Of a DNA stretch of 38,683 bases, positions 29,310 through 38,683 are shown in pieces. Source of the DNA: a virus; the IMG/VR virus record IMGVR_UViG_3300033388_001850, positions 1-38,683 of that record; one strand, 5' to 3'. The position numbers and the translations under genes were made by a program. The notes below the pieces were generated by a model that ran no database searches, was not told the origin of the DNA, and worked only from the letters and a program-made list of their open reading frames with translations. How positions within the stretch are numbered: position 1 is the first letter of the stretch; each line of letters begins with the position of its first letter.

Positions 29310-31232
29310 ATGGGTTTTAGAGAATATTTGCTTACTCGTAGTAGATCGGCAAATAATAATAATAGATTTAAAATGTTCTTAGATGATTCATTGGATTATC
29401 TAATTAAGAACTGTAATTTAATATCATACAACACACCTACAACAGACAAAGTAGGTAAATCATCAAGAACAGCTGTAAGAGGTAAAGCATTGGTAGGTGA
29501 TGGGGCTACTTATGGAACGGTTGATTTTGTTACTAATGATTTATATGATATTGAATTAATAACAACAGGAGCTTTAGTTGGTCAATATTTATTAGATTTT
29601 AGATTTAACGGTGGAATTGGAAGTGTGAGATATAACTCATCAGCTATATTAGTAGCGTCTAGTGGTGTTGTCACTTCTGATATTTTACCAGATGGAACTT
29701 ATTTAGAAAAAGTAGTAGGTATACAAATAACATCGACAGTTATGTATTTATTATCACACTACACGGTTGGCGATGAATATTCAGGGAATTTATTATCACT
29801 CAAATTAACAAATCAATCAGATGGTGAAGTATTTACAATCAACTTTGAATCAAGACAAGATGATGGTTTAATCCCATTTAATAACAGCGGTGAACCTATC
29901 ATGGTTGAACAGTTTCTATCTCCAGCAATAGCTACTATTAACAGTAACATAGGTAGTGAGCAGGATGAATCTGATAAGGGTGTAACGTTTGTCAAGGCAT
30001 TGGGTAAGAATAAGTTTAATAAAGAGTTAGGTTTATTGGGATTCTTTTTAAATTCTAGTGGTGTGGCATCACCTTCGGGTTCAGGGACTGGAATAAGCGA
30101 TTTCACATTGGTCGAACCGAGTACAACTTATTACATTTCAGGGTTTAGTGTTAGCCTTGCTAATCAATGTTATTATGATAAAGATAAAAATTTTATCAGT
30201 TTAGATGCTAGCACAAACTTGCTTACAACACCTTCTAATTGCATGTATATCAGGTTAACAATTCCAAGTTTTGCAACTGCAAAAGAAGCCGCCCAATTAG
30301 AACTAGGCACAGTACCAACAGCATATGAAGCCTACAAAGGCTACTCATTCGACATACTAGGTTTAATACCTATACAAGATGGCACACCAATTCTAGGCAA
30401 TAACGCTTATACTATCGATGGTAGAATAACAGCAGAGCATAAGGGTAGAATTAAGCATGATAAAAGGGTTGTTGATGGGGTTGTTGATTATGATACTGAT
30501 AAATATACCGTTTTAGATGCCGGAGCAAGCATTGTAGATGATAAATTACAAATAATTTCAAATGGAGTTAGCTTTGTAGATGCAATGTACGATATAGTTC
30601 TTGATGAATCAACAGAATATACGATTGTTTGGGATATAGAAGTAAATACAACTACGGTACTTAGTCAATTTGTCAGTGTAGAAAATACAGGTTTTAACGA
30701 TGGAGCTAGACAATATTTCCCATTAGCAACTACGGGTGAATTTAGACAAAAGTTTACAACATTAGCAACTATAACAGCACCATATATACACACTTTTACA
30801 AGAACTGGCGCACCAAACGGTGAAATAATAAAAGCATCATTCAAAATATATAAAGGTGATAAGTTGATAGGAACACTACCAACCCACGCAATATATGAAT
30901 CAGGTAACTCTATAACACCTGACCAAGTGTATGATGGTTCACCTAATGATGGTGTATTTAAAATAGCTAACGTTAATCAGGTAGTACCGTTTGACGATTT
31001 AGCAAACATATCATATCAGCAAGTATATGTATCTGAAGATAAACAAAAAATATTAACATTCGCTGAACCATTAGTTCGACATTCTGATTGTGATTCTAAG
31101 GCTAGAAGATTTGTTGATATTAATGAACAGCTTTATGTACAGATAGGAACTACAGGAGAATATGAGCCATTCTTAGTAGATGGTGAAAAGTTTATGGTAC
31201 TTAAAGAAAATGCTAGTAAGGTGGTGGAATAA
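29310..31232 (+). CDS. Large fibre-like protein in the head module
   Basis: A 640-residue, mostly beta protein. It contains a QLELGTVPTAYEAYKGYS motif typical of phage fibre domains, and carbohydrate-binding-like regions rich in Tyr, Ser, Thr and Asp (about residues 190-340 and 380-520). It lies between portal and minor capsid genes, not in the tail operon. A head fibre or a receptor-binding decoration is the best guess; a second tail fibre is less likely by position. AAGGGGG lies before the start. Confidence 0.6.
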   Translation: MGFREYLLTRSRSANNNNRFKMFLDDSLDYLIKNCNLISYNTPTTDKVGKSSRTAVRGKALVGDGATYGTVDFVTNDLYDIELITTGALVGQYLLDFRFNGGIGSVRYNSSAILVASSGVVTSDILPDGTYLEKVVGIQITSTVMYLLSHYTVGDEYSGNLLSLKLTNQSDGEVFTINFESRQDDGLIPFNNSGEPIMVEQFLSPAIATINSNIGSEQDESDKGVTFVKALGKNKFNKELGLLGFFLNSSGVASPSGSGTGISDFTLVEPSTTYYISGFSVSLANQCYYDKDKNFISLDASTNLLTTPSNCMYIRLTIPSFATAKEAAQLELGTVPTAYEAYKGYSFDILGLIPIQDGTPILGNNAYTIDGRITAEHKGRIKHDKRVVDGVVDYDTDKYTVLDAGASIVDDKLQIISNGVSFVDAMYDIVLDESTEYTIVWDIEVNTTTVLSQFVSVENTGFNDGARQYFPLATTGEFRQKFTTLATITAPYIHTFTRTGAPNGEIIKASFKIYKGDKLIGTLPTHAIYESGNSITPDQVYDGSPNDGVFKIANVNQVVPFDDLANISYQQVYVSEDKQKILTFAEPLVRHSDCDSKARRFVDINEQLYVQIGTTGEYEPFLVDGEKFMVLKENASKVVE

Positions 31233-31697
31233 ATGTATGAATCTAATTTAACAGGTGCTTTCATAGACCAACAATTAACAGATAAATTAATAACTCCAGA
31301 GGGCGGTATTGCAATTAAAATGATTAACAAAACAGGTTTACCATCTGTAAAAGGTTCGGTTCTTGCAATAGAAAACACTATAGAAAAAGGTGTTAAACTT
31401 CAAACCGTTGAATACGACTCTGTAGGTGTTGTGTATGAAGATGGCATTGCAGACGGTGAGGAAGTTTGGGTTGTTATATCAGGAATAGCAGAAGTGCTGT
31501 TAGAAGATGGAACAGGTGGAACTATGGGATATTGGACGTTTGCTGCTGATACAGATGGTAGAGCGGATATGCTACAACAACCACCAGGCGGAACGATAGT
31601 TGCAATAGACAATCATTTCAAAGAAATCGGACATTGTACAGAAACCGTTGCAAGTGGTACTGATGTGCTTTGTAAAATAATGATGCACTTTAATTAA
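31233..31697 (+). CDS. Capsid decoration / fibre-associated protein
   Basis: A 154-residue protein with the pattern of small proteins in Bacillota phages that follow a fibre gene (NKTGLPSVKGSVLAIENT, VYEDGIADGEEVWVVISGIA, PPGGTIVAIDNHFKEIGHC). These form beta-rich domains, perhaps a decoration or fibre base. The ATG follows the previous stop closely, after GGTGG. Confidence 0.55.
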   Translation: MYESNLTGAFIDQQLTDKLITPEGGIAIKMINKTGLPSVKGSVLAIENTIEKGVKLQTVEYDSVGVVYEDGIADGEEVWVVISGIAEVLLEDGTGGTMGYWTFAADTDGRADMLQQPPGGTIVAIDNHFKEIGHCTETVASGTDVLCKIMMHFN

Positions 31698-31707
31698 GGG
31701 GGATTAT

Positions 31708-32208
31708 ATGTCTTATGAATCAAATAACACAGGGTTGGAAATGGACGCCGGAGCAACATTGGCAACTAATCCCACTATGTTTACAATTAAAACTACATCT
31801 GAAAATCCCTCACCTCACGATTTAATCGATGGTGATTGGCAAGACGTTAACTTTGTAGATATTGTGGCAACTATACACGGTGATTTCACTTATATAGGTG
31901 GCATACTTACTTATATAGGTGTAGATACATTGGAAATGAGTATACAAATTGGTAGTTCTATCTTTTGTAACACTATAAACACTAAGGTTCATATAGGACA
32001 ATGGTTAAACGGAGCAGAAGATCAAGGCGCTATCGCAGTAAGTAAATCTGAAAGTAATGTTTCTATAGTGCCGTTTGGTTTATTGCCACCATTCACAATC
32101 GAAACGGGTGACACATTAAACCTTAGATTATTAGCAGATAATGATTGTCATGTTGATATGTTCCATACATCAGTAGAAATAAGCACTAAAAAAATATATG
32201 TAACGTAG
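31708..32208 (+). CDS. Beta-rich fibre-tip or decoration protein
   Basis: A 166-residue beta-rich protein (many Thr, Ile, Gly; short helices absent). Size and composition resemble C1q/TNF-like trimeric tips of head or tail fibres. Good ribosome site (AAGGGGGAT). Homology cannot be shown by eye. Confidence 0.5.
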   Translation: MSYESNNTGLEMDAGATLATNPTMFTIKTTSENPSPHDLIDGDWQDVNFVDIVATIHGDFTYIGGILTYIGVDTLEMSIQIGSSIFCNTINTKVHIGQWLNGAEDQGAIAVSKSESNVSIVPFGLLPPFTIETGDTLNLRLLADNDCHVDMFHTSVEISTKKIYVT

Positions 32209-32217
32209 GAGGGTACA

Positions 32218-32574
32218 ATGACTGAAATAACAATGAAACTATCTTTACCTTTAATCAGAGTATGCATAGATGAAGGCGCAATAATCGATGAAGATCTAAT
32301 GTTTGCTGATTTATCATACTTAGGTGATGTAAAGACTTCTAAGTGCGAACCTGACTTAGGAGATGGACGTAAATCATGGGAATCACAGTATTATTGTGTT
32401 ACTCGTGAAGGTAGAGACTATGTATGCGTAGGAAGAAGTGAAATTAACTCTAAAGGTAATGCTACAGGAAACTTTATGCAATTACCTGATGGAGAGTTTG
32501 AAAAGTGGGTTTTAGTATTTACATCTGATAATATGTACCCTTATGAGGATTTACCAGAATTAGAAGAAGCCTAA
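32218..32574 (+). CDS. Hypothetical protein at end of fibre block
   Basis: A 118-residue acidic protein, start after AGGAGGGTAC. It closes the block and its stop lies inside the terminator at 32563. Function unknown. Confidence 0.5.
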   Translation: MTEITMKLSLPLIRVCIDEGAIIDEDLMFADLSYLGDVKTSKCEPDLGDGRKSWESQYYCVTREGRDYVCVGRSEINSKGNATGNFMQLPDGEFEKWVLVFTSDNMYPYEDLPELEEA

Positions 32575-32639: not shown

Positions 32640-33380
32640 GTGCTTACACCAAGTTATATTGATAGAATGTCTGACGATATGGTTGAATTGTATTCCGAAT
32701 ATGAATTAACTGTATTAGAAGATATATCAAGACGAATATCTAAAATGAATTATTTAACACCAACAGCAGAGTTTCAACTTGAACAATTAAGACAATCTGG
32801 ATTAGTTAGAAGAAATGCTATTGTTGAAATTTCAAAACTTACAGGTAAATCAGAAGAAGAAATTATAATTGTATTTGAAAGTGCTGGTATTCAGACGCTT
32901 AAAGTTGACGATGCAATATATAAAGCTAACGGTTTGAATCCTATTCCTTTGAAAGATTCACCAGCTATGATCAATTTATTAAATGTAGATGCTTTAAGAA
33001 CTAATGCTGAACTAATAAATTTAACAGGAACAACGGCGATATCAAGTCAAAGATTATTTATAAAAGCCACTTCATTAGCACATTTACAGGTTCAGAGCGG
33101 TGCTATCACTTCTGATGTTGCCATTAACAACGCTGTTAAATTAGCTTCTAAGGATGGTTTACTTGTTACTTATCCTAGTGGAACTAAAAGATCTGTTGAA
33201 GCTGCTGTAAGAAGTAATGTACTCACAGGGGTTAATCAATCCGCTTTAGCAATACAAGATATGCGAGCTGTAGAAATGAATTCTGATTTAGTTGAAACAA
33301 CGGCTCATGCCGGTGCTAGAGAAGGTGAAGGTTTTAAAGGTCATGTTAATTGGCAAGGAAAGGTATTTAGAAGGAACTAA
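32640..33380 (+). CDS. Minor capsid protein, N-terminal part (split gene)
   Basis: A 246-residue fragment of the phage_min_cap2 / A118 gp4-type minor capsid protein that sits near the portal. It starts with GTG after GGGGTGAT and ends at WQGKVF followed by four extra residues (RRN then stop). In relatives this point continues through KYPDF and NCRHSFYPF. The continuation is found at 34084-34468, after an inserted HNH endonuclease gene. The two parts together have about the usual length (about 370 residues). Confidence 0.85.
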   Translation: MLTPSYIDRMSDDMVELYSEYELTVLEDISRRISKMNYLTPTAEFQLEQLRQSGLVRRNAIVEISKLTGKSEEEIIIVFESAGIQTLKVDDAIYKANGLNPIPLKDSPAMINLLNVDALRTNAELINLTGTTAISSQRLFIKATSLAHLQVQSGAITSDVAINNAVKLASKDGLLVTYPSGTKRSVEAAVRSNVLTGVNQSALAIQDMRAVEMNSDLVETTAHAGAREGEGFKGHVNWQGKVFRRN

Positions 33381-33388
33381 GAAAAGCT

Positions 33389-33416
33389 TTGATTTATTCC
33401 TAATATATGTTATATT
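33389..33416 (+). promoter_or_regulatory. Promoter of homing endonuclease gene
   Basis: TTGATT (33389-33394), 16 bp, TATATT (33411-33416) with TGT extension. It lies entirely within the insertion, giving the endonuclease its own transcription. Confidence 0.55.
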
Positions 33417-33432
33417 TAATTTAGGAGGTTTT

Positions 33433-34077
33433 ATGAAAGCTAAAAATTTGTTGGGTAAAGTATTTGGAAGGTTAACCGTAATTGAAAGAATTGAAAATAA
33501 GAATAGTAGAACACAATGGAAGTGTCGTTGTGAATGTGGAAATGTACATAATGTTATAAGTAAAAGTTTGGTTAATGGCAGCACTAAAAGTTGTGGTTGT
33601 TTGCGTAGAGAAATTGTAATGGAATGTAATACTACTCACGGGTTATCTAAAACAAGATTGCATAAAACATGGCGTGGAATAATACAAAGATGTAATAACA
33701 AAAAAAATACACGATTCAAATATTATGGTGGTCGTGGTATAATCATTTGTGATGAATGGTTAAACAATTTCAAATCTTTTTACGATTGGTCTATAAAAAA
33801 TGGTTATTCTGACGATCTAACAATAGATAGAATTAATAACGATGGTAATTATGAACCGGGTAATTGTAGATGGATAACAATGTTGGAGCAATGTCATAAT
33901 AGAGGGTTACACCCCAAAAATAAAAGTGGTTGTTCTGGTGTTACCTTTGCAAAAGATAGAAACAAGTGGAGAGCATCCATAACTATTAATTATAAAAAAA
34001 TAAACTTAGGATCATTTAAAAATATTGATGATGCTATAATTGCAAGAAAACAAGCGGAACGAAAATATTGGAGGTGA
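33433..34077 (+). CDS. HNH/AP2-type homing endonuclease
   Basis: A 214-residue protein. The N-terminal part has a Cys-rich zinc site (C31, C33, C35, C54, C56; CRCECG and SCGC), the middle an HNH-like core TIDRINNDGNYEPGNCRWIT (130-149), and the C-terminal ~45 residues an AP2 DNA-binding domain (SGVTFAKDRNKWRASI and NLGSF). This arrangement is typical of phage homing endonucleases. ATG at 33433 follows TAGGAGG; an in-frame codon further upstream lies inside the capsid fragment and is not used. It should cut capsid genes that lack the insertion. Confidence 0.88.
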   Translation: MKAKNLLGKVFGRLTVIERIENKNSRTQWKCRCECGNVHNVISKSLVNGSTKSCGCLRREIVMECNTTHGLSKTRLHKTWRGIIQRCNNKKNTRFKYYGGRGIIICDEWLNNFKSFYDWSIKNGYSDDLTIDRINNDGNYEPGNCRWITMLEQCHNRGLHPKNKSGCSGVTFAKDRNKWRASITINYKKINLGSFKNIDDAIIARKQAERKYWR

Positions 34078-34083
34078 TTTAAG

Positions 34084-34468
34084 TTGGCAAAATACCCAGA
34101 TTTTATATCAAGCACTGGTTACGGAACTGTAACAGGTCTCGGAGGAGCTAACTGTTGACTGCAGACATTCTTATTTCCCATACTTTGAAGGTTCAGAAAA
34201 AACTTATCCTAAAGAATTATTAAAATCTTATAAAAAAGATGATGTAACGTATAACGGTAAAAGTATGTCGTATTATGAAGCTACTCAGAAACAAAGGTAC
34301 TTTGAAAGAAATATCAGACATTACAAAACTGAATCTAAAATGATGTCTGCAGCTGGTCAAGATCCTACTTTTGCAAACTCAAAGGTTAGACAATGGCAGA
34401 AAAAGAATCGTGAATTGGTAGACCAAACAGGTGTCAAGCGCCAATATACACGCGAAAAGATTGCATAA
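34084..34468 (+). CDS. Minor capsid protein, C-terminal part, with TGA interruption needing a 7-base skip
   Basis: The TTG start at 34084 follows GGAGGTGAT. It encodes AKYPDFISSTGYG then GGANC and meets TGA at 34156. The downstream frame carries RHSYFPYFEG, then VTYNGKSMSYYEATQKQR to TAA at 34468, which matches the C-terminal part of minor capsid proteins of this family, where NCRH is a continuous motif. Exactly 7 extra bases (TGACTGC) interrupt it. Skipping from TGT (34153) to TGC (34160) restores the motif; a simple +1 shift would add Asp-Cys. Alternatively the fragment is inactive or the 7 bases are an error. A separate start at 34265 is only part of this frame. Confidence 0.7.
34141..34165 (+). 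promoter_or_regulatory. Candidate translational bypass (hop) site
   Basis: Take-off codon TGT (34153-34155) is followed directly by TGA C, then by a matching Cys codon TGC (34160-34162), and translation could resume at AGA. Both Cys codons are normally read by one tRNA. A Shine-Dalgarno-like GGAGGA lies 6 bases upstream of the take-off codon. The layout is a short version of the T4 gene 60 bypass, where a stop follows the take-off codon and the landing codon matches it. Confidence 0.4.
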
Positions 34469-34489: not shown

Positions 34490-34515
34490 AAAGTTGTCTT
34501 TTGTCCGACATTACA
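34476..34515. repeat. 8-bp inverted repeat
   Basis: TGTAATGT (34476-34483) and ACATTACA (34508-34515) are perfect inverted copies, 24 bases apart, flanking the -10 box and start point of the short RNA unit. It may be a regulator site. Confidence 0.45.
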
Positions 34516-34566
34516 AAAATAACATCAAAATCCTTTTTCGTAGGGGGATTATGATGTTATTTTTCG
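34496..34566 (+). ncRNA. Candidate short non-coding RNA of about 70 nt
   Basis: A promoter (34461-34489) and a very stable terminator (34515-34566) leave a transcript of about 70 bases with no open frame with a start and ribosome site. The RNA would be mostly hairpin. It sits just before the main late promoter. It is a prediction from promoter and terminator placement only. Confidence 0.4.
34515..34566 (+). terminator. Very strong intrinsic terminator before late genes
   Basis: AAAAATAACATC (34515-34526) and GATGTTATTTTT (34553-34564) form a perfect 12-bp stem; an inner AATCC/GGATT stem extends it. The A run on the left side could also make it work on the other strand. It isolates the late promoter. 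Confidence 0.92.
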
Positions 34567-34570
34567 TTTA

Positions 34571-34599
34571 TTGACCTAAAGGGACATTCGTTATATAAT
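34571..34599 (+). promoter_or_regulatory. Strong promoter of the head/tail operon
   Basis: TTGACC (34571-34576), 17 bp, perfect TATAAT (34594-34599), directly after a strong terminator. It should drive scaffold, capsid and downstream genes. Confidence 0.88.
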
Positions 34600-38062: not shown

Positions 38063-38587
38063 ATGGCTAAGATTAAAAGAAAAGAACTGAAAACGTTCAT
38101 TAATACAACTTATGGTACAACTGATGTTTATGAATTGCTTGGAGCAGATTTGGAAGAATTCATTGTTGCCATGAATATGGAAGTTGAAGCGACTAAAAAC
38201 ATTCTTGGTGGTTCATCTATTAATATCACTCAAGGTAATAAAACTGCTGCTGTTGAACCTTACTATGCTGATACGGGTACAGGATTGTTTAAAGTATTGC
38301 AAGAAATTATTAACGAAGATAAAGAACTTGATCAATTAATCACAGATATAGTTAATGTTGAAGCTTGGGAAACACCTGATGGCGCAAACTACCCAGCCTA
38401 CAAAGACATTTCTAAGATTGAAATCGTTAGTGCTGGTGGTAACACGGTAGGATATCAAATCCCGTTTAACTTACATCTTACAGGTGATAAGGAACTTGGT
38501 GCATTTAACCCAACTACTTTAGTTTACATTGAGGGTACATGGTCAAGCCAAGTATCGCCATATGGAACATTTACACCAACACCATAG
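38063..38587 (+). CDS. Major tail (tube) protein
   Basis: A 174-residue protein with the beta-rich look of tail tube proteins (SSINITQGNKTAAVEPYYAD, ITDIVNVEAW and a GAFNPTTLVYIEGTW end). Start at 38063, right after AAGGGAGAC, is preferred over an in-frame start upstream inside the previous gene. It forms the tube on which the tape measure sets the length. The final codons appear again at 1-18. Confidence 0.85.
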   Translation: MAKIKRKELKTFINTTYGTTDVYELLGADLEEFIVAMNMEVEATKNILGGSSINITQGNKTAAVEPYYADTGTGLFKVLQEIINEDKELDQLITDIVNVEAWETPDGANYPAYKDISKIEIVSAGGNTVGYQIPFNLHLTGDKELGAFNPTTLVYIEGTWSSQVSPYGTFTPTP

Positions 38588-38683
38588 AGAATAAACACTT
38601 ACCCAGCCTTTCAAGGGTTGGGTATTTTTAAATAATGAGGAGGTTTTATGAACAATTTTAATTTTAATACAAAGACAGGTACA
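38570..38683. repeat. Terminal overlap, copy 2 (identical to 1-114)
   Basis: The last 114 bases repeat the start of the window, with the tail tube end, a terminator (38599-38628) and the first codons of the next gene. This supports a closed circular sequence. Confidence 0.95.
38648..38683 (+). CDS. Tail assembly chaperone-type protein, N-terminal end (partial, duplicated)
   Basis: The first 12 codons of the gene whose full copy is at 79-534, shown again because of the contig overlap. Confidence 0.9.
   Translation, partial: MNNFNFNTKTGT

Follow-up and report, generated by a model that had tools for sequence, protein, structure and literature searches.

A homing-endonuclease-like gene and a linked short insertion in the Phage_min_cap2 gene of phages: a candidate case of translational bypass

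How could a phage make a conserved head protein from a gene that is interrupted twice? The question is raised by a virus genome (IMG/VR record IMGVR_UViG_3300033388_001850, positions 1 to 38,683) that we analysed as a single stretch of 38,683 nucleotides, hereafter the window, in which the Phage_min_cap2 gene is split by an HNH homing-endonuclease-like gene and broken again shortly downstream. An earlier note on this DNA, made from the letters alone, had read the locus as a gene cut in two by an HNH/AP2 homing endonuclease with its own promoter, and had proposed that the virion uses a two-chain minor capsid protein.

A minor capsid gene in three pieces

The window represents a phage genome in full: its first and last 114 bases (1-114 and 38570-38683) are identical, and through this exact terminal repeat the record can be joined into a circle. 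Profile searches found terminase, portal, scaffold, major capsid, connector, tape-measure and lysis genes, and the structural genes other than Phage_min_cap2 are whole, while no integrase was found among the window ORFs scanned. Neither of the two findings that the earlier note had named as capable of overturning its reading was made: the closed genome contains no intact second copy of the broken gene, and the window carries no intron signal. Phage_min_cap2 is located between the portal and scaffold genes. Four genes of unknown role (640, 154, 166 and 118 aa; 29310-32574) lie between the portal gene and Phage_min_cap2, which are adjacent in two other loci of our survey (L291 and L522). On the other side, a strong hairpin (34513-34599, fold z -4.8), followed by T residues and then by an 11/12 promoter match (34571-34599), separates Phage_min_cap2 from the scaffold gene.

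Close inspection reveals that the gene lies in three pieces, not two, all on the + strand. The N-part (32640-33380; GTG start, 246 codons; PF06152, E 7.5e-55, profile 1-244) ends in WQGKVFRRN and a stop codon, confirming the border at WQGKVF that had been set from the letters. It is followed by the HNH gene (33433-34077, +), whose frame differs from both flanking Phage_min_cap2 frames and whose end overlaps the ribosome-binding site GGAGGTGAT (34070-34078) and TTG start (34084; the pair spans 34070-34086) of the split-off part. From this start the middle piece (34084-34158) reads the 24-codon frame LAKYPDFISSTGYGTVTGLGGANC, which begins (TTG)AKYPDF and ends GLGGANC before a UGA at 34156-34158. 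The remaining C-terminal piece (34160-34468; 102 codons beginning CRHSYFPYFEG; PF06152, E 2.6e-22, profile 275-366) occupies a third frame and has its first ATG only at 34265. Compared across all frames, the three pieces match the PF06152 profile at positions 1-246, 251-276 and 273-366, with 186.8 bits for the N-part and 79.7 for the C-terminal piece (cut-off 26.3) and 14 for the middle piece alone. The family is not found here as an uninterrupted frame with its N-C-x-H motif: the match runs through three frames, and the motif is broken by 7 nt, which correspond to 34156-34162 if the insertion is placed after UGU.

These borders change the earlier interpretation in part. The HNH gene does split a conserved head gene, though not simply in two, and the split-off part does start after GGAGGTGAT and a TTG with AKYPDF, but it is not the intact C-part that had been supposed, since a UGA closes it after 24 codons. 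The loop that receives the HNH gene tolerates splitting, as described below; a plain two-chain product, however, cannot be read from the DNA, because the second chain is cut short within the invariant N-C-x-H motif, 24 codons from its start. The second break therefore calls for a ribosome hop, a frameshift or a restart that would yield three chains; otherwise, the gene is dead.

The HNH gene encodes 214 amino acids (phrog_374, E 1.4e-87) and sits in the Phage_min_cap2 loop between VF and YPDF. Its product has zero Pfam matches at E<=0.05, and the AP2 label derives solely from the names of some tblastn hits, similar phage proteins annotated AP2. Upstream of it lies a candidate sigma-70-like promoter on the + strand (33389-33416; TTGATT, 16 nt, TATATT with a TG element; 9/12). 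Sites of that score are no more frequent in the window (9) than in shuffled sequences (mean 10.5), but each of the four HNH-split genes described below has, as judged by eye, a TATAAT-like element in this position. To the eye, the exon end (33357) resembles the beginning of the HNH gene (33454); this likeness was taken as chance, a comparable match between loci having an E of 0.43.

Recurrence of the HNH gene and the short insertion

A profile built from ten relatives was run over all loci. Phage_min_cap2 was present in 429 of the 519 sequences examined, giving 228 distinct genes, 224 of them spanning the region, once three duplicates of the window (L001-L003) and repeated contigs had been dropped (the viral scans covered at most the best 80 loci each, ranked by similarity). 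Five partly overlapping genome surveys (391, 395, 394, 392 and 393 genomes, with matches in 41, 44, 50, 52 and 32, respectively) were read as row lists, from which 12 odd-looking regions were examined at base level; two of these were HNH splits. Among the matches listed, the Cys and the His of N-C-x-H are both present in 216/216 single-piece genes, and zero insertions or deletions occur in these genes from profile column 267 (the Asn) to 275, while the HNH-bearing loop (columns about 242-249) varies in length among the surveyed genes. In an AlphaFold model of an intact relative (L020, mean pLDDT 84.5) a short strand (residues 242-244) directly precedes the HNH split, and N-C-x-H belongs to a stretch without regular structure (259-274). 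The model is silent on function because a fold search with it gave no PDB match at E<=0.001; a PDB sequence search gave no convincing match either.

Twelve of the 228 genes among the matches listed are in more than one piece, and in two of these (the window and the viral contig L245) an HNH gene occupies the loop; searches with the HNH protein alone found L245 as the sole further HNH gene inside Phage_min_cap2 among the matches listed. Isolated stops or shifts account for four others (L118, L178, L290 and L516). In two more (L274 and L291, the latter being bajarodcaudo virus 3, PQ006094.1, annotated as a complete genome) the same loop is split by other sequence and N-C-x-H is intact. Because unrelated ORFs split it in these phages with the motif left intact, the loop evidently tolerates splitting. 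The ORF in L291 (1489-3336) encodes 219 aa of unknown function, and both halves of the gene are annotated as minor capsid protein; in L274 (1519-3310) an additional C-terminal domain extends the N-part, and the C-part has a new start at an ATG. Finally, in 3/228 genes among the matches listed (L022, L225 and L260) an intein separates the N from the C of N-C-R-H at their exact junction. The inteins (approximately L022:4029-5000, L225:2029-3000 and L260:589-1563) are in frame and roughly 310-330 aa long; Intein_splicing was matched in L022 and L225, and the intein of L260 was recognised by eye. The literature searched, as far as its texts were accessible, holds no report of an intein at the N|C bond of Phage_min_cap2. 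In L395 (1763-3624) an intact Phage_min_cap2 is closely followed by a further, related HNH gene (42% identical), perhaps as a homing gene that targets Phage_min_cap2 without splitting it.

The genome surveys added two HNH-split genes from bacterial genomes (L522 and L523), and all four HNH-split genes carry an insertion of 6-8 nt within the N-C-x-H codons, as does one gene without an HNH gene (L144). Among the matches listed such an insertion occurs in 3/228 genes (the window, L245 and L144), while the remaining 225 are free of it; for the two HNH genes to fall by chance among the three inserted genes of 228 has a probability of 1.2e-4, one of the two being the index case. The layout of L245 is that of the window: an N-part ending WQGKVFRWNQ and a stop, an HNH gene whose product is 53% identical to that of the window, GGAGGTGAACA with an ATG, YPDF, and then AAC TGC CGT UGA with 8 extra nt. 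L522 and L523 likewise have the HNH gene in the loop and a ribosome-binding site and ATG ahead of the split-off part, so that such a site and start codon precede YPDF in 4/4 HNH-split genes; their motif insertions read AAT-AGGTAAAT-TGC and TGT-ACAGGGC-CGG, respectively. Across the loci the inserted sequences differ in length and sequence and fall at different codons of the motif, and the C-terminal frame is free of other lesions in 4/5. The exception is a 2-nt shift in L523 (3028-3100, +), about 25 nt past the 7-nt insertion; the outer frame is restored, since 7 nt and 2 nt make 9 nt, and this second shift may reflect decay or a second adaptation.

L144, identified as such only after its insertion was known, turned out to be a relic in which the HNH gene is lost and the ribosome-binding site and start codon are kept, now in frame and useless. 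Its loop contains TTTAGGATAACAAGAAAGGGGGTGAAATTGGCAGTT, a ribosome-binding site followed by TTG GCA GTT (compare ATG GCA GTT in L245), around which the N- and C-parts are re-fused in frame with the UGA kept. Such a pair of ribosome-binding site and start codon in the loop proper was seen in L144 alone among the 191 loops read, two other matches lying beyond the loop.

L245 can be compared with two HNH-less sisters that have intact genes (L222 and L224, the latter sharing its sample number). It is about 90% identical to them up to L245:2055, unalignable across the HNH region, and about 90% identical again from 3001, the first base past the insertion. A cut near the insertion, mended as in homing by copying that extends over the HNH gene, would be expected to leave such a replaced tract. 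Of the 30 differences between L245 and L222 past the insertion, 25 are at third positions, a bias that shows selection on the frame and does not date it relative to the insertion.

A candidate ribosome hop and its alternatives

The following sequence of events would account for this arrangement. An HNH endonuclease gene splits Phage_min_cap2 at a length-variable loop, leaving the downstream part with its own ribosome-binding site and start. Some 70 bp further on, N-C-x-H holds a 6-8 nt insertion that is linked to the HNH gene, as its recurrence and the edge of the L245 tract show. The N-C-x-H place would be the target of the enzyme, and the insertion would protect its carrier from cutting. Ribosomes would begin at the downstream start codon, read 24-35 codons, meet the insertion and hop over it, the peptidyl-tRNA leaving one codon and landing on a matching one. 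The hop would restore N-C-R-H exactly, and the head protein could then function as two chains. In the window the proposed hop site, drawn from the sequence and its comparison with the 216 intact genes, is UGU-UGA-C-UGC (34153-34162, +), with a take-off Cys codon at 34153-34155, the stop at 34156-34158 and a landing Cys codon at 34160-34162; its product would give the tryptic peptide YPDFISSTGYGTVTGLGGANCR followed by HSYFPYFEGSEK.

Matched codons are available in the window (UGU over UGAC to UGC), in L144 (CGC over UGA to CGA) and in L522 (AAU over AGGUA to AAU). Matched take-off and landing codons thus occur in 3/5 loci, against 5.8% of simulated random insertions (P 0.002), and a stop directly follows an intact codon in 3/5 (the window included), against 9.5% (P 0.007); both tests are post hoc and include the index case, and short duplications would inflate the matched-codon result. 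Neither L245 (CGU to GGC) nor L523 (UGU to GGC) offers a landing codon that matches, and no hairpin was found at the three hop sites folded (fold z +1.0 in the window, -0.66 in L245 and -0.45 in L144). Hopping fits most cases and not all, given these two unmatched loci, the second shift of L523, a possible UUG restart in L245 and the missing stem-loop.

Could the genes simply be dead? The HNH enzyme, or an intein endonuclease of the same site, might have cut N-C-x-H, with faulty repair leaving the small insertions; no full C-part would then be made, and the phages or prophages would be defective or helped by intact relatives. Variation in length, sequence and motif codon is what repair scars would show, and the inteins at the exact N|C bond of three genes indicate that mobile elements do use this place as a target. 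Two of the five cases come from bacterial genomes, one of them with the second shift. Against this, HNH-split genes with an intact motif, which would be the living ones, number 0/4, the C-terminal frame is otherwise free of lesions in 4/5, the halves of L144 have been fused again in frame around the relic, and the window closes on itself with its other structural genes whole. We regard death of the gene as unlikely. A protein of three chains, with termination at the UGA, a restart nearby and a domain assembled from the parts, seems distinctly improbable: in L245 a UUG that shares bases with the UGA (UUGA) would open the reading frame of the last piece, but the window has no in-frame ATG, GTG or TTG from the UGA until the ATG at 34265, 105 nt on, a start there would lose CRHSYFPYFEG, L144 has no start at its insertion, and the break would fall inside the invariant C-x-H.

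Other forms of recoding would add residues to the motif, in the window by a +1 frameshift at UGU-UGA-C of the kind used by release factor 2, and in L144 by reading through the UGA. The sequence UGAC, which the window has, makes for a leaky stop, and a GGAGGAG is located 5 nt upstream of the UGU in the window. A slip from UGU to GUU would nevertheless keep almost no pairing, as we reason, the product would be N-C-D-C-R-H at a place with zero insertions in 216 genes, and the three frames involved (0, +1 and +2) demand one mechanism tolerant of any frame, which makes this reading harder still to credit. We consider it very improbable that RNA splicing, intein splicing, or a sequencing or assembly error causes the break. 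Inteins do occupy the N|C bond in three relatives, but no Rfam intron reaches gathering score in the window (the matches in 33300-34200 are at chance level), only some 70 nt of the insert lie outside an ORF, and the window pieces contain no splicing domain, their flanks matching PF06152 only and the HNH protein no Pfam family. With neither an intron core nor a splicing domain, a group I or II intron or an intein in the window was ruled out. Base-calling error does not explain an insertion that is met again, next to an HNH gene of this kind, in records unrelated to one another. An intein remnant was also considered as the source of the 7 nt (the Cys codon coming first, as L022 suggested) and set aside, as it leaves the association with the HNH gene unexplained.

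Taken together, these comparisons make a cassette that joins the HNH gene to a linked insertion at or near its target very probable. In every case a good ribosome-binding site and start precede the split-off part, of use only if ribosomes pass the insertion. We lean slightly towards the whole explanation, a homing cassette that includes ribosome hopping. More tentatively, we suggest a recurrent cassette in relatives of the phages and prophages of Clostridia and Bacilli, in which an HNH gene would travel with a 6-8 nt self-protection insertion in the invariant motif, which ribosomes would hop.

Known parallels and implications

T4 gene 60 is the best-known example of translational bypass linked to a homing gene, and the comparison drawn here follows the accessible portions of the papers cited. 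In T4, mobA separates gene 39 from gene 60, and the latter contains an insert of 50 nt that is bypassed (PMC5009743, PMC3014915, PMC2988022), with a stop after the take-off codon, matched codons, and a gap that may protect against the nuclease (PMC5009743, PMC3014915). The earlier note had cited this split under the name of MobE, a mislabelling, as mobA splits 39/60 and mobE splits nrdA of phage Aeh1 (PMC2988022). As in the Phage_min_cap2 cassette, the HNH homing gene sits at the split of a conserved gene, and the split-off part has its own start with a non-coding insert shortly after it; as in the window, a stop comes right after the take-off codon and the take-off and landing codons match. 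The cassette differs in its gap (3-5 nt, from an insertion of 6-8 nt, versus 50), in having no hairpin that we could find, in affecting a minor capsid gene in unrelated phages, and in occurring at five loci rather than one with an insert sequence that is not fixed, its bypass being inferred. The two seem to operate in a similar way, but we do not claim membership in the T4 type, because no hairpin was found and the bypass is a proposed one.

Other systems share single features, again as far as the sources could be consulted. In the mobE-split nrdA of Aeh1 and the split DNA polymerase 43A/43B, too, a free-standing homing gene marks the point where the coding region is divided, and the two polypeptides are active as a pair; the available text does not describe a second downstream insertion in either (PMC2988022). 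Stop-hops in constructs (Weiss 1987) and the short byp elements of Magnusiomyces mitochondria, both summarised in PMC5009743, resemble the Phage_min_cap2 insertion in their short gaps, their matched or partly matched codons and an A site that holds a stop or an unused codon; unlike it, the former are synthetic and the latter mitochondrial. According to the same 2016 review, in the part available, no natural in-frame stop-hop was known (PMC5009743). The inteins of L022, L225 and L260 are mobile elements in the same gene and at the same invariant place, and differ from the cassette in being in frame, with a splicing domain (L022 and L225), and in lacking both the short insertion and an HNH gene in the loop. 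The literature searched, largely outside subscription papers, contained no report of a Phage_min_cap2 homing cassette with bypass.

If the proposed explanation is true, the cassette would add a second natural system in which homing is linked to translational bypass, one both independent and repeatable, and L144 (CGC-UGA-CGA), its HNH gene lost and its halves re-fused, would be a candidate for a natural in-frame stop-hop. With four separate records, intact sisters at about 90% identity and one relic, the order of insertion, protection, recoding and loss becomes open to comparison. And if ribosomes need no hairpin to hop gaps of 3-5 nt, short bypasses may hide in many genes that are annotated as broken.
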